Assembly: GCA_036245805.1 (NCBI GenBank)
Contig: BTRK01000005.1
Location: 44,689,216 to 44,753,215 of the forward strand
Direction: 5' to 3'
Source of the DNA: Pristionchus mayeri
Taxonomy: Eukaryota; Nematoda; Chromadorea; Rhabditida; Neodiplogasteridae
Length of the DNA: 64,000 bases
The translations under genes and the position numbers were made by a program. The notes below the pieces were generated by a model. That model worked only from the letters and a program-made list of their open reading frames with translations, searched no databases and was not told the DNA's origin. Position 1 is the first letter of the stretch. Each line of letters begins with the position of its first letter. Shown here in pieces: positions 14,332 through 53,895 of the stretch.

Positions 14332-16331
14332 GGATATGATAATTGCGAAACATATAACATATTGCTTTCGATTTACAGGTGTCTGATTCACCATAAGAAG
14401 TTAAGAGACATTAACATAATTTCGCACTCTACCTTGTGAAGTTCCTTATTGGATGTTTTTTCAAGTCGTTAGCTAATCGCACATTTGTAAGTGCTCTAAG
14501 AAAATTACGTAAACAATTGTATTTCAGCTATTGGTTGCTTTCTTAATTGAACATCGCTAAGAATGCAATATATCACCGCCACCTGAATCTTTCCCACCCA
14601 AGATACGGTATCACAAGTCTAGGATTTCTCGGAATATCGTTTATGAATATTTCATTAGATTTGACGTAAATAAGCATCTGCCTGATATTAACTATCTTGC
14701 AGCAAGTCTCTAATATCAACGCGAATTATTTCTACTAGAGGGGATCATTCACACCTTTATGAATATGTGCATACAATACGATTTCTGAGAAGTTCGACTT
14801 ATTTCTTCAGCGTCCTGGCAATAGCTAAATGAAATTTTCCCTTTTCAAATATTGTCAAGAATATTGTGCTTTTATCAAACTGTGTAATATAACTGTCTCG
14901 CACCTAATTAGTATATCTACATCATCTAGACTCATCTAAAGTAGTTTATGATGATGTCGCGCAACTGTGTTTATTATGGAGGAAACTTCTTATCAATATG
15001 AAAATTTATGAGAAAGTGTACCTCAACCAACATTTACAAGGTACAATTTACATTTGCAATTATAATACCTTTTACCGTTTGATAGGTCTCGTCAGCAAAC
15101 CTGAACTTAAAAAAGGGGTGCCCTAGATCACAGTACACGCACACATCGGATCGCAGATGTGAGTCGTAAGAAGTAATCACACAGACATCCAACGCAACCA
15201 TTTGAACATCGACATAAATCGTATCATCATTTTGCACATTCCGTCGATCGGCCTCGCAGTGAGAGAGTAAGGAAAATGAAGAGAGAACTACACTAATTTC
15301 GCACTCTAATGCACATGATATGGTATCTACGGGAGGAATTTCAGCTGTTCCGAGATATGGTTAATTGATCTGAAAATTCGGCGAAACTCGTGACGTTTAA
15401 GTCCCGCGGGATGTGCTTACTTCCGAATACCTTTCACCCATGACGACATGTATAGGTCACTGAAGTAGCAGTGTCCTCTCGAGAGCAAATATGGCTTCTC
15501 TCGAAATGACTCTCTTCATTATGTACACTCTCTCACAGATCTAACTGGCGAAATGTGCATAATGCAGTGAGTCATTCTATGCGAAGACATTGCTACTCTG
15601 CTACTCGAGAGCCGTCAAATCGTACGTGTTATCTTTATTTTAATGTGCTTAGCATTTTAACCTTCATTCGATGCGAATTTCCTCCATAATAAACACAGTT
15701 GCGCGACATCATCATAAACTACTTTAGATGAGTCTAGATGATGTAGATATACTAATTAGGTGCGAGACAGTTATATTACACAGTTTGATAAAAGCACAAT
15801 ATTCTTGACAATATTTGAAAAGGGAAAATTTCATTTAGCTATTGCCAGGACGCTGAAGAAATAAGTCGAACTTCTCAGAAATCGTATTGTATGCAGATAT
15901 TCATAAAGGTGTGAATGATCCCCTCTAGTAGAAATAATTCGCGTTGATATTAGAGACTTGCTGCAATATAGTTAATATCAGGCAGATGCTTATTTACGTC
16001 AAATCTAATGAAATATTCATAAACGATATTCCGAGAAATCCTAGACTTGTGATACCGTATCTTGGGTGGGAAAGATTCAGGTGGCGGTGATATATTGCAT
16101 TCTTAGCGATGTTCAATTAAGAAAGCAACCAATAGCTGAAATACAATTGTTTACGTAATTTTCTTAGAGCACTTACAAATGTGCGATTAGCTAACGACTT
16201 GAAAAAACATCCAATAAGGAACTTCACAAGGTAGAGTGCGAAATTATGTTAATGTCTCTTAACTTCTTATGGTGAATCAGACACCTGTAAATCGAAAGCA
16301 ATATGTTATATGTTTCGCAATTATCATATCC
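14332..16331. mobile_element. Fold-back element FB-3, full copy at outer edge of palindrome 1
   Basis: Two inverted arms of about 657 bp (14332-14988 and 15675-16331, centre 15331.5) flank a unique core of about 690 bp. The ends read AGGATATGATAATTGCG. The same arm occurs as a solo copy at 23298-24060 and as the palindromic core at 47297-49036. Core sequence GTTTAAGTCCCGCGGG is shared with the 48.1-kb copy. No transposase is seen, so movement or amplification would need help from another element or from replication errors. Confidence 0.8.
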
Positions 16332-16403
16332 TACAGATAAATAATACACAAGGTGGAGATGGACGGAGGAAATGATTGCATTTTAAAATAGTATAACTCT
16401 TAC

Positions 16404-16661
16404 CGATACCAGAATGAGATGGCGATGAGTGTACACGTGTGCACGACAGTGTCGTGAATGGCCTCGAAGAGCCCGGCACAGAACAGATCTCCGACCTGTT
16501 AGCATGGGCATAATCGTAATAACAACAAACATAACATCAATAGTAATAATTATCTAAAAAATATGTATGATAATACGAATACGTTTGTAAACGAAATAAG
16601 AGGCGAGCTCACAAGTCGACACGGCCCCATGTGCACTACTGTGGACGCGTTGAGGAACATT
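16404..16661 (-). pseudogene. Srd exon 3 fragment (TM3)
   Basis: Two exon pieces on the minus strand, 16613-16661 and 16404-16495, encode the GPCRL motif and GLFEAIHDTVVHTCTL...SFWYR. This copy carries the same 6-bp deletion before GPCRL, and the same loss of exons 1-2, as the plus-strand copy at 22.96-23.23 kb. The two are therefore inverted duplicates of one already damaged sequence. Confidence 0.8.
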
Positions 16662-16740
16662 CTGCAAAGTAGTGTGTTTAGACGATTATCTATTTTTCGA
16701 GACAAGATGAAAATTAATTTCTGAAATATAAAATTGCAAA

Positions 16741-16960
16741 CTTAATAATTGGTTATTCGGTTGAGGGGCAATGGTTACCAACTGGACGCTCCCACTCTAA
16801 CTGTTGTTAACCAGTTAGAGTGGGCGGAGCTTAAGATAACCAGTTGATAACCAGTGCCCTGACCAGTTGTTGGAGGGTTCCCCAGCAACTGGTTGGAAGA
16901 AACCAGAGGAAAGCGATGAATGATATTGACCAGTAATCATGGCAAATACATTGTGAATAA
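16741..16960. repeat. AACTGGTT/AACCAGTT-rich hairpin cluster upstream of Srd exon 1
   Basis: CCCACTCTAACTG and CAGTTAGAGTGGG form a hairpin, followed by several AACCAGT/ACTGGTT repeats. It is repeated in all mirror copies: about 22.68-22.86, 42.05-42.21, 46.2-46.35 and 49.98-50.14 kb. It lies just 5' of Srd exon 1 where exon 1 is retained, so it may be promoter sequence or a MITE. Confidence 0.55.
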
Positions 16961-17332
16961 TTTTGCGCGGTTGAGATATTATTGCCTGCGATTTATACCT
17001 TACTATATGTATGTATTGCAGTATTGAATTCTAGTGTTTTACCTCAATACATTATTGTAGTGTAGTACTTATTGTATGCGTAATTGGACCACGCTAAATA
17101 ACTACGTAAAACAATAGGTACAGCTACGCCTGTGTGATCATTGAAAGCAAATTAGTACAGTAACGATGGAGATCTGATGACAAAATACCAAAATGGAATA
17201 CCAAATATATAATACAAAATATCCTGGGTTGCGTTATATTATTTTGTTTTAACAAGATAGGGTTTCAGAATATGGATTGTCGGAAAACTACCCGAACCAA
17301 CATTATGACAATATGCAAATCATAAGTTTAAG

Positions 17333-18763
17333 GGTTCCTGGATGCATTTGACCCTCCGTCTGCATTGACAATTGGTCATTTCCTTGTCTTCTCTGATATC
17401 GCCTACGCTTATATCTTCTGGAAACGACGAATGGTAAGCGAGATCAATGCTCAGATAGTGCTTATTTTGCGCATCTCACAGGCTAAACATTCAGAAGGCC
17501 AAACTTGGTACTATCACTTTTGGACAGTCAAATCGGGCATATTTAAAATGGTCGCCTCTCTCATGATCCTTTTCATACATTAAGATTAGCAAATAATTAT
17601 AAATACCTGGTTAGTAAGGCAACATGTGATTGGTTTCATATAAATTTAATATTTTCTGAGAAAACATATCGCTTCCTGAAAAATATATCATTTTCTTCCC
17701 ACATCAGATACGTTCTCAGAAAAGAACGCGATTTCACTCAAATGTTTAATTTTTACCCAGAACATTGTTTAATTTTTACCCAGAACATTTTGATTGTTTT
17801 AAAATGTTTAATTTTTTTAAATATTTTATGGTTGAGGTGTTGAAAACGCTCGCGGCAAACGCCAGCAAGATGAGCTCGAGAACGAGAGAGATGCACCAGT
17901 CGCTGATCAAGGTAATAGCAAAAAAAACAAAAACAACAGCAACAATGACAACAGTTATAACAACGTCAATAGCAACAACAATAACAATAATACTAATACT
18001 AATACCCCTTCAGGTGCTCACGATTCACTCGCTCCTACCCTCCTGCGTCCTGCTCGGCTTCACCCTCATGTTCTTCCAGATGGCCGGTTTCTAACGGTCG
18101 GTTGAGGTCGAGAGGATGATCTACACGGTGAGCGCCACTTTTTGTACATGAAATCCACAATTAGTCGTTGCGGCATTCTGTAAGAGTTAGATTCTGGATA
18201 CTTCCAACACTCGCCTCCTCCCTAATATATTTCTAAATACTTCACCACAGTCTCGTATTCTATTTTGACTCTCTTGCCGTAGATTATGTAAAATGGAGGC
18301 TGTGACCCTAATCACGAGGTGTTTTTTGAAGAATATTTTCAAGAATGCATTACATTACGGCTTCAATTCAATTGATTTTTGCAGATCGCCGTTGTGCCAG
18401 CAGTAGCAAATCCCGTGCTCACACTGTACCACATCGCTCCCTACCGACGGTTTGCAGAAATATCAAGCTATTTACTTCAACTGTGCAATTTGCACCGTTA
18501 TTTATGAGTAGTTGTTTCCGAAAGTAGAGTTCACATCAATGCTAAAACTTGGATTTTGCTCAATTTTGATACAAATAGCACCGCCGAGTAGAAAAGTAGC
18601 AAGAAGCGTCACATATAACACGAAAAAGGACAACAAAAATTAAAGCAATTCCAATTTCAGATTCATCGCTGGCTGCCTTCCATTCGAGATCCGTAAGAAG
18701 TCCGTGGGAACGACCATCCAAACCCACTCTGTAGTCTCGAACATTTCAACCAACTTCTTGTGA
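17333..18763 (+). pseudogene. Srd 3' fragment, exons 6-10, with nonsense codon (Srd-E, copy 1)
   Basis: Exon 6 (17333-17433) has IGHFLVFSDIAYAYIFWKRR. The following exons carry RTREMHQSLIK, TIHSLLPSCVLLGF, NPVLTLYHIAPYR and a last exon starting FIAGCLPFE, stopping at 18761-18763. Exons 1-5 are absent; upstream is an inverted Srd fragment. In exon 8, after MAGF, the other two copies read Tyr-Gln but this copy reads a TAA stop. It is therefore both truncated and interrupted. Confidence 0.8.
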
Positions 18764-18792
18764 TCTGCTTGCATATCTCGGTATTCACACAT

Positions 18793-19779
18793 TGTGTGTG
18801 ATACTTGTATTCAACGTTGTATAGTTTGCAACTCGGGTAATCGTATTTTCATTTATCACACTCACTCACAAGCCGTCCGATCCGGAGAGTGTGTCGAATG
18901 ACTAGACGGTGACCCGAATTACGAACTCTAACTTCTTGTGACTTGCGCCACTTGCGCCAAAACGTCATATTTTTGTCTTTTTTTTCGCATTGACCTACGA
19001 TAATTTATGTCACCAAAGAGGCACCTCACGTATTTTTTTCGCGTTTTCGTCCATAATTTCCTTCTTGTCGCAGCTCCTGCACAAGTCGAATAAATTATCC
19101 TCATCTCAAGCAATTTTTGGTAGAATATTATCGCATGCGTACACTTTAGAATTCGTTCTCCATCCAGTAAAAGCAGTTTAACGTTAATGGATTTTTCGAA
19201 ATCAAAAGTCCAAAATTGGAATGAACAACACTTGTTAAGGCGTGGTTGGTGTGAACAGCAAAGAGTTCAGCCGAATGTTTACCGCGTGTGTTTGTCATAT
19301 CACATTTCCACCAGCTTCACTCGATTTCTGGGTAATTACTTATCCCATTCCATCAGCTAATGCACGTTAAAGGTGTCCCGGGAATGTGTGCGAATAGTGT
19401 CCTAGCTAGTTCGTTTATGTGCAACTCTCTGAGCTTAATTTTCATCCACTGCACGTGGCAAATTCGCGACAGTTTCCCATTGTGATAGCAAGTTCATCGT
19501 GGACAGACTCAATCGCATTCATTCGCGCTACCTATCTTTAGCTGTCGAAGTTGTTTTCGCCGATCCGCATTTACTACTAAACATCAGGTTTTCCATAACT
19601 GGTAAATTCAATTTTGTGCAGGTGAAATGTACTCAGCGCAATTTCGACACGGATAGCAGCTAAAGATTCAGGCATTAGGCTTGATGAACGGTTAATGATA
19701 CCTTCTCACACTGTCCAACAGTAGCCTGCTAAAATGATACTCAATTCGTGTTTGTCATCTGCATATCGACGTTGTTCAT
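18793..19779. other. 987-bp segment present only in this copy
   Basis: The copies at 44.3 and 52.0 kb run directly from TATTCACACAT to CCGACCACG. Here 987 bp intervene, sharing CAT at both edges. No gene is recognised inside; it includes one member of the CACTCTC hairpin family near 18866. It could be an insertion here or a deletion in the ancestor of the other copies. Confidence 0.65.
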
Positions 19780-20034
19780 CCGACCACGTCCCGAGTATCA
19801 ATACTAGGATCGTTCCAGTGGGGGAAATAAATTGTTTCTCGAATTGTGATCATATATGATTAATGTTTACTTACGAAGAATCCAGTGTATCATTTGAAAA
19901 TGTGTATCATCGTATTTTTCACTAGGCTTTTCGACGAATGCGATATGATATGCATACGTAAGTGTATGTTGAAATATTCGAAAATAATCGGCAAGACATA
20001 CGTCTAGCGCAAGGAAAGGTTTGATCAACACCAA

Positions 20035-21370
20035 GTACAAGGAAACAAGGCACATACATTCCCTTGGGACTTGCGCCCAGCGTCATGAGTTTCGAAATAT
20101 AAAACTCAAAAAAGGGCAGGTGTGTACGGTCTGTTATATGAACCTACGCAATCACATGTTGTGATCTGAGCGTGGTATAACGATTCATGCCTAGCAGCTA
20201 GGGATGTATGGCGGATTCTACCTCTGCACTGAGGTCTGAATCGCCTTGTGTGAAACTGAGGTGTATTGGAACGACAACGAATCAAGAAATCAATATTATT
20301 ATCGCACAACAACACTACAGTAATACGGATAGGGAGATGGAAGATAGGGAGAGTGATGACGTCAGCAGATGAGTGACTGAGGCCAGTGGGGCGAGTGAAG
20401 GTGGAACACAGCTGGAACCTCTGAGGGAACCGAGCTACACCTGGGATACGGTACCCTTGTGAGGATCTACCGTGATGAAATGAGAGTGGGGTGCGGGCCT
20501 GTTGCAGGAGCCACCGCGGTATGAGGGGTAGGGTACGGTGCCAGCGAGCGCTGATCCTCCGTAGAGTGAAATGAGGCCGAGGGAGGGAACGGTGCCTGTC
20601 AGGGCTGATGTCCCTAGTGAGGGAGGGGGACGGTGCCTGTTGCAGGAACCACCGTGAATGAACTCGACAGTGGTCGAGGAGAGGTTCAGTGAGTCTGAAT
20701 CAAGTGAGGTGAGAGGGAGAAGAGGTCCTTTTTATAGGCGAGCCGACGTGCCATAATCTATGCTAATGGAGAGGGAGAGGGGAGAGAGTGAGAGAGTGAG
20801 ACAAGATAATTGAATTAACCAAATTGGTTAGACAGGATAATTGAATTAGCCGAGTCGTAGTCACGTTATGAGAGGCCATTTACATAGGACTGTGCTCAAC
20901 AACGGTGAATAGACTGGTATGGATTACGGTAATAGATAATAGATGAATGTGAATTGAACTGATCTTGTGATCTTGAGTGGTGGATTGGATGGAATCCGCC
21001 ACAGGATGTCTATACGAAAAACGAAATTCCCCCTCTCTCATTTTTCTCTCTCGAGCATTTCGTAATACGGTTGTCTGGTCTTATATTGAATTCGAAATGT
21101 CAAACCAATACGAAAAGGGTTATCTTATTTGGAAAATGGTGTTCACTTTTCAAATCTGTTTCATTGGCTAGTTGATCAGCGTTCTTTATTTGCGCACCTG
21201 AAACTCACCCGAACATTCAACAAACATCTAGTCCGTCGCCCTTCCTATGTAGTAAGTCACAACCAGTACAGGGAAACAAAGCACATACATTCCCTCGGGA
21301 CTTGCGCCCAGCGTCATGAGTGATACGCCGAATTTCGAAATAAAAACTTCAAAAAGGGCTTCACCCACTA
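20035..21370. repeat. Two diverged copies of a ~95-bp segment (GACTTGCGCCCAGCGTCATG)
   Basis: A block of about 95 bp at 20035-20120 recurs at about 21258-21360. Mirror copies lie at 43.55-43.65 and 44.0-44.08 kb, and again near 52.3 and 52.7 kb. On the minus strand it reads MTLGASPxGMYVL, which looks like a membrane segment but cannot be assigned to a gene. Confidence 0.55.
20208..21003. mobile_element. 796-bp insertion with GGATGT target duplication
   Basis: GGATGT occurs at 20202-20207 and 21004-21009. The mirror copies near 43.9 and 52.4 kb have a single GGATGT and no insert, so this is a filled site against an empty site. The ends are inverted: ATGGCGGATTC on the left and GAATCCGCCAC on the right. 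The interior is purine-rich with repeated ACGGTGCCTG-type units. No ORF of note, so probably a non-autonomous DNA transposon. Confidence 0.8.
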
Positions 21371-21681
21371 GAGTTCCCACTAGATTCAGCGTACTCTTAG
21401 AACGTTCAAAAGTATGATCATGGACGACAAAATTGCTCGAATTTCGCACTTTAGTGCGCCAATTCTTAAGCATTCGTAGGCTCTCGAGCATTCAGAGCAG
21501 CTGCAATATCCTACCGTGCTTTCTTTCATCTGCTCTATATTTCTGGGTGATTAATTCGTACGACTGCGGGCTGCCAGATGTGCAATATACTGCCTTTTTC
21601 CTTTGCGTAATTCCTGCGTCATTCGATATAGTTCGAAATGTGTGTCACAGTCTTCATTGTATACGCATTATCGGTCGTGAT

Positions 21682-21834
21682 TAGGGTTTTCTTATTTGGA
21701 AAATTTGTTGTTGAATGCTCGAAAGAGATTCCGTTGCACTAGATCAACAACCGCTCATCGACTATATAGGATCCCTGAAACATATCCGAAAATACGGCTA
21801 AAATTTTCGAATAAGAGAACCCTAGTCGTGCTGC
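21682..21834. mobile_element. MITE, family 1
   Basis: TAGGGTTTTCTTATTTGGAAA on the left faces TTTTCGAATAAGAGAACCCTA on the right. It is repeated at 43080-43232 and about 53101-53253 as part of the amplicon. The C-terminal part of a 148-codon ORF in all three copies is encoded by this element. Confidence 0.7.
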
Positions 21835-22961
21835 GAGAAAATTTGGAAAATGCATGAGAAGATGACGCGCATTTCGAATTCGCCAAGAGCTTGCGAGAGA
21901 GTATGCAAATGCGAAAGAGCATTTTTCGCTTTATCTGAACCTGCTCACCTCTCGTCCTATCCATTGAACTCTGAAGACGGTGAGCGAGACCAGCTGCAAA
22001 TCTTCGATTTTTTTGGTAACCCAAACTGAATGTTTCAATGTCAGAAGAGCTCGTTGAATTTTTTATAAGGTTTGTTGTCGGTCGACTATGCAAACTGGAA
22101 CTATGTCGGATGAGAACTGTTGTGTCGTACTGCCTTCGATATTTCAAAGACGGCATCACAAAATAGTTCTCAACTGATCTAGCGCCAGCGAAGCTTTGCA
22201 TAACTAGAATGAACGTTAGTGCCGGTGGTATGTTAGTGCGCGCTGAAGAGATGTTATTAGAATGTGGATAAGTAAAGGCTCGAACTCAGGTTGGAATTAG
22301 AGTGTTCTGGCTAAAACATCCATACTATTAATTATTCTCATACTGATCATTGTTATTACTGTAGTCGTATAGCGCAGACAAAAATCAGCGGTTTTCGTAA
22401 GTTTCAGCTTTATCGACAACCTGGTGCGGGGGCGGGAGAGCACGGCTTGTCATCAGATCTCCATCGTTACTGTACTAATTTGCTTTCAATGATCACACAG
22501 GCGTAGCTGTACCTATTGTTTTACGTAGTTATTTAGCGTGGTCCAATTACGCATACAATAAGTACTACACTACAATAATGTATTGAGGTAAAACACTAGA
22601 ATTCAATACTGCAATACATACATATAGTAAGGTATAAATCGCAGGCAATAATATCTCAACCGCGCAAAATTATTCACAATGTATTTGCCATGATTACTGG
22701 TCAATATCATTCATCGCTTTCCTCTGGTTTCTTCCAACCAGTTGCTGGGGAACCCTCCAACAACTGGTCAGGGCACTGGTTATCAACTGGTTATCTTAAG
22801 CTCCGCCCACTCTAACTGGTTAACAACAGTTAGAGTGGGAGCGTCCAGTTGGTAACCATTGCCCCTCAACCGAATAACCAATTATTAAGTTTGCAATTTT
22901 ATATTTCAGAAATTAATTTTCATCTTGTCTCGAAAAATAGATAATCGTCTAAACACACTAC

Positions 22962-25900
22962 TTTGCAGAATGTTCCTCAACGCGTCCACAGTAGTGCACA
23001 TGGGGCCGTGTCGACTTGTGAGCTCGCCTCTTATTTCGTTTACAAACGTATTCGTATTATCATACATATTTTTTAGATAATTATTACTATTGATGTTATG
23101 TTTGTTGTTATTACGATTATGCCCATGCTAACAGGTCGGAGATCTGTTCTGTGCCGGGCTCTTCGAGGCCATTCACGACACTGTCGTGCACACGTGTACA
23201 CTCATCGCCATCTCATTCTGGTATCGGTAAGAGTTATACTATTTTAAAATGCAATCATTTCCTCCGTCCATCTCCACCTTGTGTATTATTTATCTGTAGG
23301 ATATGATAATTGCGAAACATATAACATATTGCTTTCGATTTACAGGTGTCTGATTCACCATAAGAAGTTAAGAGACATTAACATAATTTCGCACTCTACC
23401 TTGTGAAGTTCCTTATTGGATGTTTTTTCAAGTCGTTAGCTAATCGCACATTTGTAAGTGCTCTAAGAAAATTACGTAAACAATTGTATTTCAGCTATTG
23501 GTTGCTTTCTTAATTGAACATCGCTAAGAATGCAATATATCACCGCCACCTGAATCTTTCCCACCCAAGATACGGTATCACAAGTCTAGGATTTCTCGGA
23601 ATATCGTTTATGAATATTTCATTAGATTTGACGTAAATAAGCATCTGCCTGATATTAACTATATTGCAGCAAGTCTCTAATATCAACGCGAATTATTTCT
23701 ACTAGAGGGGATCATTCACACCTTTATGAATATGTGCATACAATACGATTTCTGAGAAGTTCGACTTATTTCTTCAGCGTCCTGGCAATAGCTAAATGAA
23801 ATTTTCCCTTTTCAAATATTGTCAAGAATATTGTGCTTTTATCAAACTGTGTAATATAACTGTCTCGCACCTAATTAGAATATCTACATCATCTAGACTC
23901 ATCTAAAGTAGTTTATGATGATGTCGCGCAACTGTGAATACAACTAGTTTATTATGGAGGAAATTCGCATCGAATGAAGGTTAAAATGCTAAGCACATTA
24001 AAATAAAGATAACACGTACGATTTGACGGCTCTCGAGTAGCAGAGTAGCAATGTCTTCGCATTATTTATCTGTTTTAATGAACATCTGTTGAAAGTTGTG
24101 TAGCAACAATTTTTAAAGTTGGGCATTCATGAGATTCATAAGATTTACGTGAAATTATTTTAGAAATATCGAAATTGGTTCAGCAATCGAACATTACGCG
24201 GCGAAGGACCAGTTGGATGGTGGAAGCTGCAAGCGATTATCGTGCTCGCGTATCTACCTCACATTTCGCAATTTGTGAGTTGGAATTTTCCTCATCATCT
24301 GTTGGCACTACCCCCATCGACAACAACACACACACAATCGATTTCAATCCACATAATTAGATGGCGATGCAATCTATTCTGAATGTTTACGTTATTTTTG
24401 TAATTTTTTTCGAAATATGGGTTCTAGAAACCAAAAAATACGTCACGATCTTGCATGTGGTACTGACAAGTTTTTAAGATGATGTCCAAGAATAGCTCGA
24501 GCCACTCAAATTTGTGATTTAGATCGCCTTCTTTCACGTCACCGTTGGAAGAGAGGCGCTCGAACCATTCATCGCCTCCGTATACGGTCCAAACCACTCT
24601 AGCGAATATGCAGTTCGAGGTATCGACATCATAATCATACATTCCGATCGTTGGCATTGATTAGGGTTTCTGGACGCGACGGATCCCCCGTCTGCCTACA
24701 CCATCGGCCACTTTCTCATTTGGTCCACGATGGCGTACATTTTCATCTTCTTCAAAAGAAGAGCGGTGAGCACACGCAATTCTGTACATAAAAGTATAGT
24801 ATATCTCCCGAAATTTGCCACATTCCCACACGAGTTCGCAGTTCGGGTCAGCATATGTCATATGATTATTCCACACATTCAGGTTCTCGGGGCGCTCGCG
24901 GAGAACGCGTGCAAGATGAGCACGAGGACGAGAGAGATGCACCGTTCACTGATACGAGTCAGTGATTATTTTCAATTTCGTTTCGAATTTTCACTTATTT
25001 GTTCACCATGAGAAATACGCACAGGGTGCTGTTGACTTTTTGGTGCTCATCGTATTCTAGGAATAGATTCGTAAGATTATCTTTCTTTTGAGTGCACAAT
25101 TTCAAGTCAGACATATGAACGAGTACGTGGGATGAAGATACCACGTTTGTGCAGTCATTCCTACTTTGCTATGTCACGTGGTCTAACGATATGAAATTGA
25201 TCAGAACGAAAAAGCTCAGAACGAAATTGATGAGGCGCGCCATGTGCTCGCTCCCCTTTTAGACATTTCGACTTACGCGCATTTTTAGAGACAGGTGTGT
25301 AAACGATCAGGCGGTTTAGGGCTTGAAACAGCCTGCAAATATACGCTCTAAAAATAACCTGTTTTCATAGAATTCCAAAATAGTCGTTAAAACTTAGTAT
25401 CTCTGTCAAAATATCCGTTGTAACTTAGTATAAATCAGAATTATAAAAAAAAGTGTACAGTGTTTTTTTTAAATATTTGCTCAAACAACAGGCGCTCTCC
25501 ATCCACTCGCTGCTGCCCTCCTGCGTTCTGCTGGGATTCGCCCTAATGTTCTCGCAGATGGCCAACTTCTACCACTCGGTGGAGATCGAACACATGATCT
25601 ATTCGGTGAGTAAATTCGGGTCATCGCACATTTTTGTACAGGAAATTAGCGATTAGTCGTTGCGGCGTTCTGCAAGAATTGCATGTTTTTAAAGAAGTGC
25701 AATTCTACGGGGGGCATACATTTGCAAAACTGTCATTTGCACAACTCAACGCTGTGCGCTTAAATACAAGTATCTTGGGCATTGTTTAGTTGTTATCAGT
25801 ATACGCTCCCTTACATTTGCATTTTTGCAAATGCCCCTTTTGCAAATGTTTGCTCACCAATTCAACACTTACACTGATTGTAATAGTCACGTTCAGATAG

Positions 25901-42002: not shown

Positions 42003-42020
42003 TTCTGAAATATAAAATTG
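42003..42020 (-). promoter_or_regulatory. Possible spliced-leader acceptor before Srd-D exon 1
   Basis: On the minus strand TTTTATATTTCAG immediately precedes AAATG. A strong acceptor this close to a start codon is typical of nematode trans-splicing; an upstream coding exon is the alternative. The same sequence precedes the exon 1 copies at 46410 and 49923. Confidence 0.45.
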
Positions 42021-42700: not shown

Positions 42701-43059
42701 TTCATTCTAGTTATGCAAAGCTTCGCTGGCGCTAGATCAGTTGAGAACTATTTTGTGATGCCGTCTTTGAAATATCGAAGGCAGTACGACACAACAGTTC
42801 TCATCCGACATAGTTCCAGTTTGCATAGTCGACCGACAACAAACCTTATAAAAAATTCAACGAGCTCTTCTGACATTGAAACATTCAGTTTGGGTTACCA
42901 AAAAAATCGAAGATTTGCAGCTGGTCTCGCTCACCGTCTTCAGAGTTCAATGGATAGGACGAGAGGTGAGCAGGTTCAGATAAAGCGAAAAATGCTCTTT
43001 CGCATTTGCATACTCTCTCGCAAGCTCTTGGCGAATTCGAAATGCGCGTCATCTTCTCA

Positions 43060-44340: not shown

Positions 44341-44361
44341 ATACCGAGATATGCAAGCAGA

Positions 44362-45796
44362 TCACAAGAAGTTTGTTGAAATGTTCGAGACTACAGAGTG
44401 GGTTTGGATGGTCGTTCCCACGGACTTCTTACGGATCTCGAATGGAAGGCAGCCAGCGATGAATCTGAAATTGGAATTGCTTTAACTTTTGTTGTCCTTT
44501 TTCGTGTTATATGTGACGCTTCTTGCTACTTTTCTACTCGGCGGTGCTATTTGTATCAAAATTGAGCAAAATCCAAGTTTTAGCATTGATGTGAACTCTA
44601 CTTTCGGAAACAACTACTCATAAATAACGGTGCAAATTGCACAGTTGAAGTAAATAGCTTGATATTTCTGCAAACCGTCGGTAGGGAGCGATGTGGTACA
44701 GTGTGAGCACGGGATTTGCTACTGCTGGCACAACGGCGATCTGCAAAAATCAATTGAATTGAAGCCGTAATGTAATGCATTCTTGAAAATATTCTTCAAA
44801 AAACACCTCGTGATTAGGGTCACAGCCTCCATTTTACATAATCTACATAGGCAAGAGAGTCAAAATAGAATACGAGACTGTGGTGAAGTATTTAGAAATA
44901 TATTAGGGAGGAGGCGAGTGTTGGAAGTATCCAGAATCTAACTCTTACAGAATGCCGCAACGACTAATTGTGGATTTCATGTACAAAAAGTGGCGCTCAC
45001 CGTGTAGATCATCCTCTCGACCTCAACCGACTGATAGAAACCGGCCATCTGGAAGAACATGAGGGTGAAGCCGAGCAGGACGCAGGAGGGTAGGAGCGAG
45101 TGAATCGTGAGCACCTGAAGGGGTATTAGTATTAGTATTATTGTTATTGTTGTTGCTATTGACGTTGTTATAACTGTTGTCATTGTTGCTGTTGTTTTTG
45201 TTTTTTTTGCTATTACCTTGATCAGCGACTGGTGCATCTCTCTCGTTCTCGAGCTCATCTTGCTGGCGTTTGCCGCGAGCGTTTTCAACACCTCAACCAT
45301 AAAATATAAAAAAAAATTAAACATTTTAAAACAATCAAAATGTTCTGGGTAAAAAATAAACAATGTTCTGGGTAAAAATTAAACATTTGAGTGAAATCGC
45401 GTTCTTTTCTGAGAACGTATCTGATGTGGGAAGAAAATGATATATTTTTCAGGAAGCGATATGTTTTCTCAGAAAATATTAAATTTATATGAAACCAATC
45501 ACATGTTGCCTTACTAACCAGGTATTTATAATTATTTGCTAATCTTAATGTATGAAAAGGATCATGAGAGAGGCGACCATTTTAAATATGCCCGATTTGA
45601 CTGTCCAAAAGTGATAGTACCAAGTTTGGCCTTCTGAATGTTTAGCCTGTGAGATGCGCAAAATAAGCACTATCTGAGCATTGATCTCGCTTACCATTCG
45701 TCGTTTCCAGAAGATATAAGCGTAGGCGATATCAGAGAAGACAAGGAAATGACCAATTGTCAATGCAGACGGAGGGTCAAATGCATCCAGGAACCC
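44362..45796 (-). pseudogene. Srd 3' fragment, exons 6-10 (Srd-E, copy 2)
   Basis: Same five exons as the 17.3-kb copy but with no internal stop: exon 8 reads MAGFYQSVEVERM. Exon 6 (45696-45796) begins GFLDAFDPPS and the last exon ends TGA at 44362-44364. Exons 1-5 are missing; upstream on this strand lies an Srd 5' fragment in opposite orientation. Without TM1-TM5 it cannot be a working receptor. Confidence 0.8.
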
Positions 45797-46409
45797 TTAA
45801 ACTTATGATTTGCATATTGTCATAATGTTGGTTCGGGTAGTTTTCCGACAATCCATATTCTGAAACCCTATCTTGTTAAAACAAAATAATATAACGCAAC
45901 CCAGGATATTTTGTATTATATATTTGGTATTCCATTTTGGTATTTTGTCATCAGATCTCCATCGTTACTGTACTAATTTGCTTTCAATGATCACACAGGC
46001 GTAGCTGTACCTATTGTTTTACGTAGTTATTTAGCGTGGTCCAATTACGCATACAATAAGTACTACACTACAATAATGTATTGAGGTAAAACACTAGAAT
46101 TCAATACTGCAATACATACATATAGTAAGGTATAAATCGCAGGCAATAATATCTCAACCGCGCAAAATTATTCACAATGTATTTGCCATGATTACTGGTC
46201 AATATCATTCATCGCTTTCCTCTGGTTTCTTCCAACCAGTTGCTGGGGAACCCTCCAACAACTGGTCAGGGCACTGGTTATCAACTGGTTATCTTAAGCT
46301 CCGCCCACTCTAACTGGTTAACAACAGTTAGAGTGGGAGCGTCCAGTTGGTAACCATTGCCCCTCAACCGAATAACCAATTATTAAGTTTGCAATTTTAT
46401 ATTTCAGAA

Positions 46410-47222
46410 ATGTTCGACGAGCTGAATCACGCGTTCATGGTTCTTGGCATATGCTTCAATACGCTCGTTCTTCTCGCCATTGCTAGGAATACGCCGAGAT
46501 CATTGAGGGTGGGTGAGGTTCGGGTTTAATTTTCTGGAACTTTTGCGATATTTTCGGAAAGGATTCCAAAGAAAATAATGCAACACAGTTTTTCAAAAAA
46601 GGGATACATTGGTGATATAATATGTTTTGAGTAATCGTATTTTCACTTCACATTTTTGGGAAAATTTAAACAATATTTTCGTTAGGTTTCAGTTGTGATA
46701 AAAACACATCAGCTCAACGAATAATTAGTACCTGATTGTATTATTTGAACCAGAGCATAATTCAAAAATTCCCCAAGAGGAAGCCCTAATCAATAAACAT
46801 TCTAGGACTACTCCCTCATCATCTTTAACACTGCTGTCAACGACTTGCTCGAGATGACCGTTCACTTTCTTCTGAATGCACGGTGAATTCATATTTTCGA
46901 AATTAATTTTCATCTTGTCTCGAAAAATAGATAATCGTCTAAACACACTACTTTGCAGAATGTTCCTCAACGCGTCCACAGTAGTGCACATGGTGAACGG
47001 GCCGTGTCGACTTGTGAGCTCGCCTCTTATTTCGTTTACAAACGTATTCGTATTATCATACATATTTTTTAGATAATTATTACTATTGATGTTATGTTTG
47101 TTGTTATTATGATTATGCCCATGCTAACAAGTCGGAGATCTGTTCTGTGCCGGGCTCTTCGAGGCCATTCACGACACTATCGTGCACACGTGTACACTCA
47201 TCGCCATCTCATTCTGGTATCG
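46410..47222 (+). pseudogene. Srd 5' fragment, exons 1-3 (TM1-TM3)
   Basis: Exon 1 from the ATG at 46410 (99 nt), exon 2 about 46806-46882, and exon 3 split into about 46959-47013 and 47131-47222 (FWYR). The sequence then runs into the fold-back core, so TM4-TM7 are never reached. The acceptor before the second half of exon 3 reads AACAAG instead of AACAG-G, which moves the splice site by one base. The intact gene at 39-42 kb does not have this change. Confidence 0.8.
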
Positions 47223-47296
47223 GTAAGAGTTATACTATTTTAAAATGCAATCATTTCCTCCGTCCATCTTCACCTTGTGTATTATTTATCTGTAGG

Positions 47297-49036
47297 ATAT
47301 GATAATTGCGAAACATATAACATATTGCTTTCGATTTACAGGTGTCTGATTCACCATAAGAAGTTAAGAGACATTAACATAATTTCGCACTCTACCTTGT
47401 GAAGTTCCTTATTGGATGTTTTTTCAAGTCGTTAGCTAATCGCACATTTGTAAGTGCTCTAAGAAAATTACGTAAACAATTGTATTTCAGCTATTGGTTG
47501 CTTTCTTAATTGAACATCGCTAAGAATGCAATATATCACCGCCACCTGAATCTTTCCCACCCAAGATACGGTATCACAAGTCTAGGATTTCTCGGAATAT
47601 CGTTTATGAATATTTCATTAGATTTGACGTAAATAAGCATCTGCCTGATATTAACTATCTTGCAGCAAGTCTCTAATATCAACGCGAATTATTTCTACTA
47701 GAGGGGATCATTCACACCTTTATGAATATGTGCATACAATACGATTTCTGAGAAGTTCGACTTATTTCTTCAGCGTCCTGGCAATAGCTAAATGAAATTT
47801 TCCCTTTTCAAATATTGTCAAGAATATTGTGCTTATATCAAACTGTGTAATATAACTGTCTCGCACCTAATTAGTAAATCTACATCATCTAGACTCATCT
47901 AAAGTAGTTTATGATGATGTCGCGCAACTGTGAATACAACTAGTTTATTATGGAGGAAATTCGCATCGAATGAAGGTTAAAATGCTAAGCACATTAAAAT
48001 AAAGATAACACGTACGATTTGACGGCTCTCGAGTAGCAGAGTAGCAATGTCTTCGCATAGAATGACTCACTGCATTATGCACATTTCGCCGTTTAAGTCC
48101 CGCGGGATGTGCTTACTTCCGAATACCTTTCACCCATGACGACATGTATAGGTCACTGAAGTAGCAGTGTCCTCTCGAGAGCAAATATGGCTTCTCTCGA
48201 AATGACTCTCTTCATTATGTACACTCTCTCACAGATCTAACCGGCGAAATGTGCATAATGCAGTGAGTCATTCTATGCGAAGACATTGCTACTCTGCTAC
48301 TCGAGAGCCGTCAAATCGTACGTGTTATCTTTATTTTAATGTGCTTAGCATTTTAACCTTCATTCGATGCGAATTTCCTCCATAATAAACTAGTTGTATT
48401 CACAGTTGCGCGACATCATCATAAACTACTTTAGATGAGTCTAGATGATGTAGATTTACTAATTAGGTGCGAGACAGTTATATTACACAGTTTGATATAA
48501 GCACAATATTCTTGACAATATTTGAAAAGGGAAAATTTCATTTAGCTATTGCCAGGACGCTGAAGAAATAAGTCGAACTTCTCAGAAATCGTATTGTATG
48601 CACATATTCATAAAGGTGTGAATGATCCCCTCTAGTAGAAATAATTCGCGTTGATATTAGAGACTTGCTGCAAGATAGTTAATATCAGGCAGATGCTTAT
48701 TTACGTCAAATCTAATGAAATATTCATAAACGATATTCCGAGAAATCCTAGACTTGTGATACCGTATCTTGGGTGGGAAAGATTCAGGTGGCGGTGATAT
48801 ATTGCATTCTTAGCGATGTTCAATTAAGAAAGCAACCAATAGCTGAAATACAATTGTTTACGTAATTTTCTTAGAGCACTTACAAATGTGCGATTAGCTA
48901 ACGACTTGAAAAAACATCCAATAAGGAACTTCACAAGGTAGAGTGCGAAATTATGTTAATGTCTCTTAACTTCTTATGGTGAATCAGACACCTGTAAATC
49001 GAAAGCAATATGTTATATGTTTCGCAATTATCATAT
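47297..49036. mobile_element. Fold-back element FB-3 at the exact centre of palindrome 2
   Basis: Symmetric about 48166.5, with the AGGATATGATAATT ends facing outward and a core of about 150 bp (48091-48242) that includes GTTTAAGTCCCGCGGG. It sits at the same intron site (ATTATTTATCTG) as the solo arm at 23.3 kb. Confidence 0.82.
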
Positions 49037-49110
49037 CCTACAGATAAATAATACACAAGGTGAAGATGGACGGAGGAAATGATTGCATTTTAAAATAGTA
49101 TAACTCTTAC

Positions 49111-49923
49111 CGATACCAGAATGAGATGGCGATGAGTGTACACGTGTGCACGATAGTGTCGTGAATGGCCTCGAAGAGCCCGGCACAGAACAGATCTCCG
49201 ACTTGTTAGCATGGGCATAATCATAATAACAACAAACATAACATCAATAGTAATAATTATCTAAAAAATATGTATGATAATACGAATACGTTTGTAAACG
49301 AAATAAGAGGCGAGCTCACAAGTCGACACGGCCCGTTCACCATGTGCACTACTGTGGACGCGTTGAGGAACATTCTGCAAAGTAGTGTGTTTAGACGATT
49401 ATCTATTTTTCGAGACAAGATGAAAATTAATTTCGAAAATATGAATTCACCGTGCATTCAGAAGAAAGTGAACGGTCATCTCGAGCAAGTCGTTGACAGC
49501 AGTGTTAAAGATGATGAGGGAGTAGTCCTAGAATGTTTATTGATTAGGGCTTCCTCTTGGGGAATTTTTGAATTATGCTCTGGTTCAAATAATACAATCA
49601 GGTACTAATTATTCGTTGAGCTGATGTGTTTTTATCACAACTGAAACCTAACGAAAATATTGTTTAAATTTTCCCAAAAATGTGAAGTGAAAATACGATT
49701 ACTCAAAACATATTATATCACCAATGTATCCCTTTTTTGAAAAACTGTGTTGCATTATTTTCTTTGGAATCCTTTCCGAAAATATCGCAAAAGTTCCAGA
49801 AAATTAAACCCGAACCTCACCCACCCTCAATGATCTCGGCGTATTCCTAGCAATGGCGAGAAGAACGAGCGTATTGAAGCATATGCCAAGAACCATGAAC
49901 GCGTGATTCAGCTCGTCGAACAT
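49111..49923 (-). pseudogene. Srd 5' fragment, exons 1-3, mirror copy
   Basis: Mirror of 46410-47222 with the same open exons and the same altered acceptor (near 49202). The two fragments point towards each other across the fold-back core. Confidence 0.8.
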
Positions 49924-50536
49924 TTCTGAAATATAAAATTGCAAACTTAATAATTGGTTATTCGGTTGAGGGGCAATGGTTACCAACTGGACGCTCCCAC
50001 TCTAACTGTTGTTAACCAGTTAGAGTGGGCGGAGCTTAAGATAACCAGTTGATAACCAGTGCCCTGACCAGTTGTTGGAGGGTTCCCCAGCAACTGGTTG
50101 GAAGAAACCAGAGGAAAGCGATGAATGATATTGACCAGTAATCATGGCAAATACATTGTGAATAATTTTGCGCGGTTGAGATATTATTGCCTGCGATTTA
50201 TACCTTACTATATGTATGTATTGCAGTATTGAATTCTAGTGTTTTACCTCAATACATTATTGTAGTGTAGTACTTATTGTATGCGTAATTGGACCACGCT
50301 AAATAACTACGTAAAACAATAGGTACAGCTACGCCTGTGTGATCATTGAAAGCAAATTAGTACAGTAACGATGGAGATCTGATGACAAAATACCAAAATG
50401 GAATACCAAATATATAATACAAAATATCCTGGGTTGCGTTATATTATTTTGTTTTAACAAGATAGGGTTTCAGAATATGGATTGTCGGAAAACTACCCGA
50501 ACCAACATTATGACAATATGCAAATCATAAGTTTAA

Positions 50537-51971
50537 GGGTTCCTGGATGCATTTGACCCTCCGTCTGCATTGACAATTGGTCATTTCCTTGTCTTCTCTG
50601 ATATCGCCTACGCTTATATCTTCTGGAAACGACGAATGGTAAGCGAGATCAATGCTCAGATAGTGCTTATTTTGCGCATCTCACAGGCTAAACATTCAGA
50701 AGGCCAAACTTGGTACTATCACTTTTGGACAGTCAAATCGGGCATATTTAAAATGGTCGCCTCTCTCATGATCCTTTTCATACATTAAGATTAGCAAATA
50801 ATTATAAATACCTGGTTAGTAAGGCAACATGTGATTGGTTTCATATAAATTTAATATTTTCTGAGAAAACATATCGCTTCCTGAAAAATATATCATTTTC
50901 TTCCCACATCAGATACGTTCTCAGAAAAGAACGCGATTTCACTCAAATGTTTAATTTTTACCCAGAACATTGTTTATTTTTTACCCAGAACATTTTGATT
51001 GTTTTAAAATGTTTAATTTTTTTTTATATTTTATGGTTGAGGTGTTGAAAACGCTCGCGGCAAACGCCAGCAAGATGAGCTCGAGAACGAGAGAGATGCA
51101 CCAGTCGCTGATCAAGGTAATAGCAAAAAAAACAAAAACAACAGCAACAATGACAACAGTTATAACAACGTCAATAGCAACAACAATAACAATAATACTA
51201 ATACTAATACCCCTTCAGGTGCTCACGATTCACTCGCTCCTACCCTCCTGCGTCCTGCTCGGCTTCACCCTCATGTTCTTCCAGATGGCCGGTTTCTATC
51301 AGTCGGTTGAGGTCGAGAGGATGATCTACACGGTGAGCGCCACTTTTTGTACATGAAATCCACAATTAGTCGTTGCGGCATTCTGTAAGAGTTAGATTCT
51401 GGATACTTCCAACACTCGCCTCCTCCCTAATATATTTCTAAATACTTCACCACAGTCTCGTATTCTATTTTGACTCTCTTGCCTATGTAGATTATGTAAA
51501 ATGGAGGCTGTGACCCTAATCACGAGGTGTTTTTTGAAGAATATTTTCAAGAATGCATTACATTACGGCTTCAATTCAATTGATTTTTGCAGATCGCCGT
51601 TGTGCCAGCAGTAGCAAATCCCGTGCTCACACTGTACCACATCGCTCCCTACCGACGGTTTGCAGAAATATCAAGCTATTTACTTCAACTGTGCAATTTG
51701 CACCGTTATTTATGAGTAGTTGTTTCCGAAAGTAGAGTTCACATCAATGCTAAAACTTGGATTTTGCTCAATTTTGATACAAATAGCACCGCCGAGTAGA
51801 AAAGTAGCAAGAAGCGTCACATATAACACGAAAAAGGACAACAAAAGTTAAAGCAATTCCAATTTCAGATTCATCGCTGGCTGCCTTCCATTCGAGATCC
51901 GTAAGAAGTCCGTGGGAACGACCATCCAAACCCACTCTGTAGTCTCGAACATTTCAACAAACTTCTTGTGA
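50537..51971 (+). pseudogene. Srd 3' fragment, exons 6-10 (Srd-E, copy 3)
   Basis: Mirror of 44362-45796. Exon 6 is 50537-50637, followed by exons with RTREMHQSLIK, TIHSLLPSC, NPVLTLYHIAPYR and FIAGCLPFE, stop TGA at 51969-51971. Reading is open throughout, but exons 1-5 are absent. Confidence 0.8.
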
Positions 51972-53872
51972 TCTGCTTGCATATCTCGGTATTCACACAT
52001 CCGACCACGTCCCGAGTATCAATACTAGGATCGTTCCAGTGGGGGAAATAAATTGTTTCTCGAATTGTGATCATATATGATTAATGTTTACTTACGAAGA
52101 ATCCAGTGTATCATTTGAAAATGTGTATCATCGTATTTTTCACTAGGCTTTTCGACGAATGCGATATGATATGCATACGTAAGTGTATGTTGAAATATTC
52201 GAAAATAATCGGCAAGACATACGTCTAGCGCAAGGAAAGGTTTGATCAACACCAAGTACAAGGAAACAAGGCACATACATTCCCTTGGGACTTGCGCCCA
52301 GCGTCATGAGTTTCGAAATATAAAACTCAAAAAAGGGCAGGTGTGTACGGTCTGTTATATGAACCTACGCAATCACATGCTGTGATCTGAGCGTGGTATA
52401 ACGATTCATGCCTAGCAGCTAGGGATGTCTATACGAAAAACGAAATTCCCCCTCTCTCATTTTTCTCTCTCGAGCATTTCGTAATACGGTTGTCTGGTCT
52501 TATATTGAATTCGAAATGTCAAACCAATACGAAAAGGGTTATCTTATTTGGAAAATGGTGTTCACTTTTCAAATCTGTTTCATTGGCTAGTTGATCAGCG
52601 TTCTTTATTTGCGCACCTGAAACTCACCCGAACATTCAACTAACATCTAGTCCGTCGCCCTTCCTATGTAGTAAGTCACAACAAGTACAGGGAAACAAAG
52701 CACATACATTCCCTCGGGACTTGCGCCCAGCGTCATGAGTGATACGCCGAATTTCGAAATAAAAACTTCAAAAAGGGCTTCACCCACTAGAGTTCCCACT
52801 AGATTCAGCGTACTCTTAGAACGTTCAAAAGTATGATCATGGACGACAAAATTGCTCGAATTTCGCACTTTAGTGCGCCAATTCTTAAGCATTCGTAGGC
52901 TCTCGAGCATTCAGAGCAGCTGCAATATCCTACCGTGCTTTCTTTCATCTGCTCTATATTTCTGGGTGATTAATTCGTACGACTGCGGGCTGCCAGATGT
53001 GCAATATACTGCCTTTTTCCTTTGCGTAATTCCTGCGTCATTCGATATAGTTCGAAATGTGTGTCACAGTCTTCATTGTATACGCATTATCGGTCGTGAT
53101 TAGGGTTTTCTTATTTGGAAAATTTGTTGTTGAATGCTCGAAAGAGATTCCGTTGCACTAGATCAACAACCGCTCATCGACTATATAGGATCCCTGAAAC
53201 ATATCCGAAAATACGGCTAAAATTTTCGAATAAGAGAACCCTAGTCGTGCTGCGAGAAAATTTGGAAAATGCATGAGAAGATGACGCGCATTTCGAATTC
53301 GCCAAGAGCTTGCGAGAGAGTATGCAAATGCGAAAGAGCATTTTTCGCTTTATCTGAACCTGCTCACCTCTCGTCCTATCCATTGAACTCTGAAGACGGT
53401 GAGCGAGACCAGCTGCAAATCTTCGATTTTTTTGGTAACCCAAACTGAATGTTTCAATGTCAGAAGAGCTCGTTGAATTTTTTATAAGGTTTGTTGTCGG
53501 TCGACTATGCAAACTGGAACTATGTCGGATGAGAACTGTTGTGTCGTACTGCCTTCGATATTTCAAAGACGGCATCACAAAATAGTTCTCAACTGATCTA
53601 GCGCCAGCGAAGCTTTGCATAACTAGAATGAACGTTAGTGCCGGTGGTATGTTAGTGCGCGCTGAAGAGATGTTATTAGAATGTGGATAAGTAAAGCTCG
53701 AACTCAGGTTGGAATTAGAGTGTTCTGGCTAAAACATCCATACTATTAATTATTCTCATACTGATCATTGTTATTACTGTAGTCGTATAGCGCAGACAAA
53801 AATCAGCGGTTTTCGTAAGTTTCAGCTTTATCGACAACCTGGTGCGGGGGCGGGAGAGCACGGCTTGTCATC

Positions 53873-53895
53873 AGATCTGATATATTCAAGATACA
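53873..53895 (+). promoter_or_regulatory. AGATCT hexamer and TATA-like sequence before the SSP gene
   Basis: AGATCT at 53873-53878 is followed by GATATATT, 30-50 bases before the ATG. Caenorhabditis MSP promoters are known for an AGATCT hexamer and GATA-type sites, so this is a plausible sperm promoter. It is also the last base pair of palindrome 2. Confidence 0.5.

Follow-up and report, generated by a model that had tools for sequence, protein, structure and literature searches.

The usual explanation for large gene families is tandem unequal crossing-over. How, then, did 39.5 kb of mirror-image DNA come to lie within a cluster of Srd chemoreceptor genes in the nematode Pristionchus mayeri, and what has it done to the genes it carries? 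The amplicon lies on scaffold C5 (44.69–44.75 Mb), in the 64,000-nucleotide stretch analyzed here (the window). An earlier note had described two overlapping palindromes and had named a self-comparison and a measure of arm identity as checks. Self-BLAST and arm alignments gave the same nested layout to within a few bases. Palindrome 1 is centered around 32514, palindrome 2 has 5.7-kb arms around 48166 with its left arm contained within the right arm of palindrome 1, and an internal inverted repeat, R, mirrors the flanks of the segment at 42.47–45.95 kb and is seen on both right and left (Table 1).

Table 1. Features of the amplicon, by window position, and inverted pairs elsewhere in the P. 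mayeri genome, by scaffold
Feature	Position	Strand	Details
Palindrome 1 left arm	14330–32247	+	17.9 kb; colinear mirror alignment to 32782–49040
Palindrome 1 right arm	32782–49040	-	16.3 kb; mirror alignment to 14330–32247
Palindrome 1 center (C)	32248–32781		534-bp unmirrored spacer (self-BLAST, junction inspection)
Perfect hairpin	32221–32261		15-bp stem, 11-nt loop; straddles left inner arm border of palindrome 1
Left edge	13419–14330		Srd exons 1–2 on + (13973–14187) beside Srd exons 3–10 on - (13408–10991)
Palindrome 2 left arm	42454–48095	+	Self-BLAST, arm alignment
Palindrome 2 right arm	48238–53878	-	Terminates in 14-bp motif at S border
Palindrome 2 center spacer	48096–48237		142 bp; recurs in direct orientation within 15394–15546
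S, left copy	17183–22447		Carries 987-bp and 802-bp pieces missing on right
S, right inner copy	42467–45945		Inverted 14-bp motif AGATCTGATGACAA / TTGTCATCAGATCT at two borders
S, right outer copy	50388–53865		One border enters unique flank inside the same 14-bp motif
Complete Srd gene	39223–42002	-	Right arm; 10 exons, GT-AG introns, 289 aa, no stop
Left-arm Srd copy	22969–25964	+	Exons 1–2 missing, exons 3–10 present
477-bp piece with Srd exons 1–2	41524–42001		In R1–R3; missing from L1, L2
Orphan Srd exons 3–4 (L1)	16403–16672	-	tblastn
Orphan Srd exons 1–4 (R2)	46410–47223	+	tblastn
Orphan Srd exons 1–4 (R3)	49110–49923	-	tblastn
Orphan 3′ Srd exons, left S	17332–18450	+	Stop codon; both right copies read through there
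Orphan 3′ Srd exons, right inner S	44675–45796	-	Exon comparison
Orphan 3′ Srd exons, right outer S	50537–51658	+	Exon comparison
Sri/Srh-like receptor pieces	26854–32094	-	Degenerate mariner between them; mirrored at 32935–38333 (+)
Transposon insertion, left S only	20207–21003		GGATGT on either side
160-bp piece	34295–34454		On right, missing on left; within dispersed repeat
Inverted pair	C4:15.49 Mb		Arms 8.9 kb, 9 SNPs, 1,434-bp spacer; left edge of spacer meets a 375-bp hairpin repeat
Inverted pair	C4:2.04 Mb		Arms without mismatch, loop about 15 bp
Inverted pair	C4:7.14 Mb		1.2 kb compared
Inverted pair	C2:15.67 Mb		1.2 kb compared

The arms of palindrome 1 are 99.70% identical (45 mismatches in 14,860 colinear aligned bases), and chance likeness is excluded (BLAST E = 0). 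They also differ in size: pieces of 987 and 802 bp occur in the left arm only and 160 bp in the right only, 477 bp is missing from both left copies of R, and a 764-bp stretch is missing from the right inner R copy. The 987-bp piece is absent from both right copies of segment S by self-BLAST and alignment. Across the 5,641 bases aligned between the arms of palindrome 2, the differences are one mismatch and a single 1-bp indel. The units of the internal repeat are similarly close, with 6 mismatches in 1,349 bases on the right (41119–42467 versus 47293–45945), and, on the left, 2 mismatches plus an 11-bp indel over 1,605 aligned bases (15579–17183 versus 24062–22447). At the left edge of the amplicon lies a 157-bp inverted duplicate (13419–13581 and 14174–14330), and the Srd exon blocks there are apparently one gene, broken. 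Within 264 kb, segment X (391 bp, 15003–15393) is matched at just two other places, both weakly and over 59 columns.

What genes does this structure carry? The one complete gene corresponds to the P. mayeri annotation PMAYCL1PPCAC_26207 (a partial model of 287 aa). Its predicted protein identifies it as an Srd chemoreceptor, since it matches the Pfam Srd profile (PF10317) with E = 1.3e-59 and 202.3 bits against a cut-off of 22.8, over positions 5–288 of 292 and thus essentially the whole profile. Its left-arm counterpart is without exons 1–2 because these belong to the 477-bp piece that the left side lacks; its exon 3 is 6 bp shorter and its intron 4 is 764 bp longer. All remaining Srd copies in the amplicon are cut or are orphan exon blocks. 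Thus, where the earlier note spoke of an amplicon of chemoreceptor genes, the receptor identity holds, but the multiplicity does not, as just one Srd copy is complete. The Sri/Srh-like pieces (Pfam E = 7.4e-10) probably belong to one gene.

We searched the 290.8-Mb assembly with four parts of the amplicon (24061–27061, 18600–21200, 30700–34500, and 45900–48300). Shorter dispersed repeats were found inside them, and among the matches listed there was no further full-length near-identical copy of any of the four. The idea that the arms are themselves a transposable element is therefore not supported for the parts searched (3 kb of segment A; B and C; R and the spacer). Nor did the matches listed include another copy of the 534-bp center spacer or a relative, outside the locus, of the R sequence beyond position r=1348. 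The transposon in left S has copies on C1 and C5 (98%) and on C2 (93%). The 160-bp piece is included in the listed long copies elsewhere of its dispersed repeat and was probably retained on the right and lost on the left.

The explanation we favor, with confidence somewhat above even, is a real, multi-step inverted segmental duplication by strand-switching at short inverted repeats or hairpins, followed by conversion in each half. During replication or break repair, the growing strand would switch to the opposite strand at such a sequence and copy back outwards, yielding a mirrored arm. At least two such switches would have taken place, one at the inverted 14-bp motif that borders S and one at the hairpin with the 15-bp stem (32221–32261). 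Afterwards, the halves would have gained separate insertions and deletions, while gene conversion preserved some of the similarity among copies within each half. For Srd, the net outcome would be one complete gene plus fragments. Consistent with this, S is bordered by the 14-bp motif, with one border passing into unique flank within it. The hairpin is the sole perfect stem of at least 14 bp with a loop of 3–60 in the amplicon; outside, such stems occur in 18 of 448 500-bp bins. The left-only transposon, the left-only loss inside a dispersed repeat, the likeness of copies within halves, divergence that varies along a single mirror, and the inverted pairs elsewhere in the genome also fit. The right arm is probably parental, since its complete Srd gene shares its strand with the three Srd genes that flank the amplicon in the window; a fourth, which lies 13 kb beyond the window, has + orientation, and this counts against the inference. 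Also counting against the explanation, a simple two-step mirror does not accommodate the sequence of R beyond r=1348, segment X, or the way the 142-bp spacer is oriented. When the junctions were worked through by hand, two readings suited the boundary at r=1348: on the right, loss of 764 bp between direct repeats of 13 bp, or, on the left, insertion of the sequence beyond it. No single history accounts for all junctions.

If conversion followed duplication, can the order of events be read from arm identity? The two halves differ at 22 of 2,257 bases in R beyond about r=943 and at 23 of 12,603 in the rest of the mirror (Fisher p = 1e-7), with the blocks picked after viewing the data and the rest including the two 467-bp pieces of R beside S. 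These 467 bp show no left-right difference. At seven substitution columns, the left copies L1 and L2 agree against R2 and R3, and both also lack the 477-bp piece. R1 has sequence at four informative columns and agrees with the left copies at two of them. Since R1 partly sides with the left and the 467 bp are alike throughout, the apparent conversion pattern in R is mosaic, which counts against the favored explanation. Because divergence is uneven along a single mirror, arm identity is a poor clock here. The earlier inference that palindrome 2 arms are the younger used arm identity alone, and we rejected this dating: the 142-bp spacer and flanking R also lie in the left arm of palindrome 1 (15394–16732 versus 48090–49445, 97.9% by self-BLAST), so the palindrome 2 center is either older than the mirroring or was carried into both halves by recombination. 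Palindrome 2 need not be younger than palindrome 1. Arm-specific changes, which the earlier note took as a sign of events at different times, do show that the arms have had separate histories.

Could the structure instead be an artefact of merged haplotypes, fold-back chimeric reads, or whole-genome-amplification chimeras? A HiFi read of ordinary length is too short to span 39.5 kb, the palindrome 2 arms are almost identical, and the palindrome at C4:2.04 Mb is without mismatch outside its center. Mitochondrial copies at the end of scaffold C2 show that the assembly is imperfect. However, P. mayeri is a selfing hermaphrodite and was assembled from HiFi reads of bulk DNA from about 300 plates, with no amplification step mentioned in the available description, so haplotype merging, a worry raised in the earlier note, is unlikely. 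Unique spacers of 534 and 142 bp would not be expected from fold-back reads, and the palindrome 1 arms differ by at least five differences of 160–987 bp, one a transposon, besides their mismatches. The 264 kb around the locus contains no N, and the first 3 kb of segment A occurs at just two near-identical places in the assembly. We therefore consider an artefact very improbable; the structure is real in the assembly sequence, in keeping with the view that at least part is genuine. It is also possible, but unlikely, that one complex event, such as a break-driven fold-back or serial microhomology-mediated template switching, made the locus in place of stepwise fork strand-switching. The left edge, with its inverted duplicate, short R stub, and unique X between junctions, resembles a chain of switches, and inspection by eye gives about one shared base at the 14330 junction. 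However, mirror parts diverge unequally and the halves carry separate indels; the present form was therefore not made all at once.

Two other histories seem improbable. One is ectopic recombination among inverted repeats or transposons that the cluster contained beforehand. The region has several inverted-repeat and self-palindromic elements, and the orientation of the 142-bp spacer suggests a flip between the palindrome 2 arms, but inspection of the arm ends revealed no shared transposon, and three borders bear the 14-bp motif or the hairpin instead. Alternatively, gene conversion may have kept an old palindrome near-identical, perhaps owing to some benefit of the structure. Long inverted repeats common to Caenorhabditis species are described as homogenized within species (PMC1803023), and the locus bears signs of conversion; since most Srd copies are broken, no benefit is visible.

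Is inverted duplication of this kind peculiar to this locus? It is not. In searches with four protein families, seven of eight equal-score pairs on the same contig were inverted. The four pairs compared as DNA are all near-identical inverted repeats, two of them over 1.2 kb only; the other four, paired by protein score, are an Srh pair on C1 (138 kb apart), two kinase pairs, and one direct Srd pair. Because its arms lack mismatches and its loop is so short, the palindrome at C4:2.04 Mb could be a library or assembly artefact. Inverted pairing does not look receptor-specific, since kinase matches show it too. As a control, the Lectin_C family gave seven matches and no equal-score pair, too few for comparison. 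We tentatively suggest, at less than even confidence, that P. mayeri makes or keeps local gene duplicates of receptors and kinases mainly as long palindromes; fold-back duplication seeded at hairpins and short inverted repeats, with conversion afterwards, would then be the ordinary source of new gene copies in this genome, and the nested locus would reflect several rounds.

Long inverted repeats described in Caenorhabditis are near-identical, with a short unmirrored spacer, and surround gene copies, and conversion was proposed (Zhao et al., 2007; PMC1803023). The P. mayeri locus likewise has near-identical arms and a spacer around paralogous genes. Although the Caenorhabditis cases, as described, comprise a single gene pair and a locus of four genes, have arms made of 124–160 bp of intergenic sequence plus the genes, and are common to species, the arms here are 5.6–17.9 kb, nested, and hold mostly broken genes. 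Among perfect segmental duplications of C. elegans, the recent, local, small ones are reported as mostly inverted (3 of 23 head-to-tail), whereas six of eight pairs over 4 kb are head-to-tail (PMC2728738); the large P. mayeri ones seen here are inverted. In yeast ODIRA inverted triplications, inversion junctions are reported at pre-existing interrupted inverted repeats of 2–14 bp (PMC10766183). The outer order spacer-R-S ... R ... spacer-R-S resembles an inverted triplication. The 14-bp inverted motif at both S borders may have existed before the inversion; at the right palindrome 1 junction inspection revealed neither such a repeat nor microhomology. The inverted units at the S borders are 3.5 kb apart, far from the 40–80 bp that yeast fork-switching mostly prefers (PMC10766183), which counts against the favored mechanism. 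The spacers of 534 and 142 bp also lie outside that range, and we do not file the locus as ODIRA. It is also nested, with extra junctions. Like mammalian sex-chromosome palindromes, which are described as having arms over 99% identical and arm-arm conversion (PMC3723533, PMC8981503), it has near-identical arms; unlike them, it lies in a chemoreceptor cluster of a species whose hermaphrodites and males are reported to have genomes without detectable difference.

Together, the inverted pairs here and elsewhere in the genome suggest that copying back has often produced the recent local duplicates of one selfing nematode as mirror images. Since each half retains scars of its own and a short motif or hairpin remains at several borders, much of the succession of events and of the seeding sequence may be readable from the locus. 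The idea can be tested with the HiFi reads already deposited and with RSA035, a second natural isolate. Amplification of this sort can leave only one complete copy of the main receptor gene.

Self-BLAST and alignment reproduced the arrangement proposed in the earlier note, namely two overlapping palindromes (palindrome 1 around spacer C, palindrome 2 around spacer sp) plus an internal inverted repeat. On the + strand, the blocks run in the order flank, R stub, X, sp, R, S, R, A, B, C, B', A', R1, S, R2, sp, R3, S, flank. Since 15394–16732 matches 48090–49445 in direct orientation at 97.9%, sp included (self-BLAST), the left arm of palindrome 1 also contains a version of the palindrome 2 center, with the short opposite arm 14330–15002. 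Compared with a plain mirror image, sp is flipped, the outcome that recombination between palindrome arms would give.

Blocks of the nested palindromes and receptor-gene sequences in and around them (window numbering)
Feature	Position	Strand	Description
Block A	24061–30735
Block B	30734–32247
Block C	32248–32781		center spacer of palindrome 1
Block R	L1 15547–17183; L2 22447–24062; stub 14330–15002; R1 41119–42467; R2 45945–48095; R3 48238–50388		six copies
Block S	17183–22447; 42467–45945; 50388–53865		three copies
Block X	15003–15393
Block sp	48096–48237		142-bp spacer at palindrome 2 center
Srd gene, right arm	42002–39223	-	complete; ten exons, GT-AG introns, 289 aa
Srd copy, left arm			exons 1–2 missing
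Srd in R2 and R3			orphan exons 1–4 each
Srd in L1			orphan exons 3–4
Srd in S, three copies			orphan 3′ exons
Flanking Srd gene	9213–4808	-
Flanking Srd gene	62964–57716	-	intron holds mariner transposase 60335–60970
Third flanking Srd gene	13408–10991	-	without exons 1–2
Srd exons 1–2	13973–14187	+	adjoin amplicon edge, with 157-bp inverted duplicate
Fourth Srd gene, beyond window	76974–80124	+
Putative second receptor gene, Sri/Srh-like	26854–32094		pieces

The right-arm Srd chemoreceptor gene has exons 1–4 within R1 and exons 5–10 within A, and its product scores 202.3 bits against Pfam Srd. One spliced receptor protein of the window is 100% identical, where the two align, to the annotated PMAYCL1PPCAC_26207 (partial, P. 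mayeri), which is 2 residues shorter. Since the other Srd copies within the amplicon are incomplete, the duplication has, as far as Srd is concerned, added fragments and not complete genes. The orphan 3′ exons in the left S contain a stop codon where both right S copies read through. A reading frame at 53733–54248, a candidate gene, starts inside the end of the palindrome 2 right arm, and its predicted product matches the major sperm protein domain (E = 3.2e-22).

The two arms of palindrome 1 are separate entities. An 802-bp piece present only on the left is a dispersed element, flanked here by GGATGT on either side, with copies among the matches listed at 98% on scaffolds C1 and C5 and 93% on C2. 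A 160-bp right-only piece sits in a repeat whose long copies elsewhere, among the matches listed, span these 160 bp, and was therefore lost from the left. For a 987-bp left-only piece, loss from the right arm is more likely, since the genome search gave no full copy elsewhere among the matches listed. A deletion between the 13-bp direct repeats ATTATTTATCTGT could explain a 764-bp difference adjoining A. A 477-bp piece with Srd exons 1–2 is present in R1, R2, and R3 and absent from L1 and L2. At 7 substitution columns L1 and L2 agree and differ from both R2 and R3; R1 has sequence at 4 of these and matches the left copies at 2 and the right copies at the other 2, and the R stub agrees once with the right.

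Divergence between the halves is uneven. Where r is the position along R counted from the S border, the R parts past about r = 943 differ at 22 of 2,257 aligned bases and the rest of the mirror, which takes in two 467-bp stretches of R adjoining S with no left-right difference, at 23 of 12,603 (Fisher p = 1.05e-7, with the split picked after inspection of the data). A single clock-like event would not yield this pattern; conversion would, as would duplications of R that predate palindrome 1.

How did the nested structure arise? We favor strand-switching during replication, in which the replicating strand would switch template at a short inverted repeat or hairpin, repeatedly over several rounds. 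One S border carries AGATCTGATGACAA and the other its reverse complement, and the same motif at 53865–53878 connects S to the unique flank. Palindrome 1 has its left inner border inside a perfect hairpin (15-bp stem, 11-nt loop), the sole amplicon site with a perfect stem of at least 14 and a loop of 3–60; outside the amplicon, 18 of 448 500-bp bins hold such a stem. The main rival is a break-induced fold-back plus further template switches, and the left edge of the amplicon does resemble a chain of template switches. Junctions of the strand-switching type in yeast are described as having repeats of 2–14 bp, mostly 40–80 bp apart (PMC10766183); the S motif falls within this length range, but its spacing falls outside. 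Because of this misfit, we dropped ODIRA, the yeast-type inverted triplication, as a label for the locus. The order we favor is that the R/S and R/sp joins, since they are found in both halves, would have formed before or together with the mirroring, after which each half would have changed separately; the near-identity of palindrome 2 would have come last, through re-duplication or conversion.

Self-palindromic repeats also occur at 3315–4302, 6785–7929, 59423–59791, and 198–348 of the window (150–1,145 bp, 85–93% self-complementary by self-BLAST) and are apparently hairpin-type mobile elements. C5 carries, at -97313..-89771 and 123732..131270 (window numbering), ∼220 kb apart, two copies of a 7.5-kb element that has long inverted ends; pieces of the two copies are 99–100% alike, and it looks like a recent mobile element.

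The window is G000:C5:44689216–44753215 of an assembly of 290,818,952 bases in 73 contigs. P. mayeri is a self-fertilizing hermaphrodite (PMC9449363). Strain RS5460, with a 290.8-Mb genome and six chromosomes, was sequenced with HiFi reads using DNA from ∼300 plates and assembled with Canu 2.2 from reads ≥10 kb, with Hi-C scaffolding (PMC11544036, Nature Communications 2024). Near the end of C2 (G000:C2:44550843–44582507 of 44588995) are two full-length mitochondrial COX1 frames on the same strand, 15,181 bp apart, and a third, broken copy; these represent either a tandem mitochondrial genome misjoined to a nuclear scaffold or a large nuclear insertion. Nearly equal Srd matches (29.6 and 29.8 bits) at G000:C14:2599–2832 and C2:23740076–23740309 suggest that the small contig C14 is possibly redundant.

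In whole-assembly family searches, we counted by eye those pairs of matches on one contig that shared both score and profile range. Among the matches listed, Srd (113 matches) gave at least 2 inverted and at least 1 direct pair, Srh (36) at least 3 inverted and 0 direct, and protein kinases (141) at least 2 inverted and 0 direct; Lectin_C had no equal-score pair among 7 matches listed. Pooled, these listed matches give 7 inverted versus 1 direct pair (one-sided binomial, 0.035), and 6 versus 0 for pairs ≤20 kb apart (0.016), a small sample in which the counts are lower bounds because only the best candidates were scored. The COX1 direct pair was excluded as mitochondrial, and two near-equal kinase pairs (inverted at C5:3.46 Mb, direct at C2:30.04/30.09 Mb) because their scores are unequal. 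DNA comparison of 4 of the 7 inverted pairs revealed near-identical inverted repeats in all 4, the comparison spanning 1.2 kb each for the C4:7.14 and C2:15.67 pairs.

One of these 4, a palindrome at G000:C4:15486884–15506097, has 8.9-kb arms differing by 9 SNPs and one 2-bp indel, with Srd sequence inside; its 1,434-bp spacer begins with a 375-bp self-complementary hairpin repeat, ≤2 bp from the left edge. Another, at G000:C4:2034001–2052795, spans at least 18.8 kb (its left end is the end of the stretch compared) around a ∼15-bp loop at 2043398; its arms have zero mismatches apart from the central bases, and it may be very recent or a fold-back artifact. Kinase-family matches on opposite strands, 5–9 kb apart with equal scores (C5:30447914/30455696; C6:34688436/34693956) or with nearly equal scores (C5:3456255/3465038), are possibly further inverted duplications.

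Among the papers listed, judged by titles and the visible starts of abstracts, we found no description of Pristionchus palindromes; in the P. mayeri genome paper (PMC11544036), the passages on duplication or segmental duplication are silent on such structures, and its main text contains neither "inverted" nor "palindrom". In C. elegans, perfect local duplications >4 kb are reported as head-to-tail in 6 of 8 cases and smaller ones as mostly inverted (head-to-tail, 3 of 23; PMC2728738), newborn duplicates are frequently adjacent and inverted (PMC2728529), and long inverted repeats are maintained within Caenorhabditis species (PMC1803023). In the P. mayeri assembly, the type of duplication present at this locus is not isolated.
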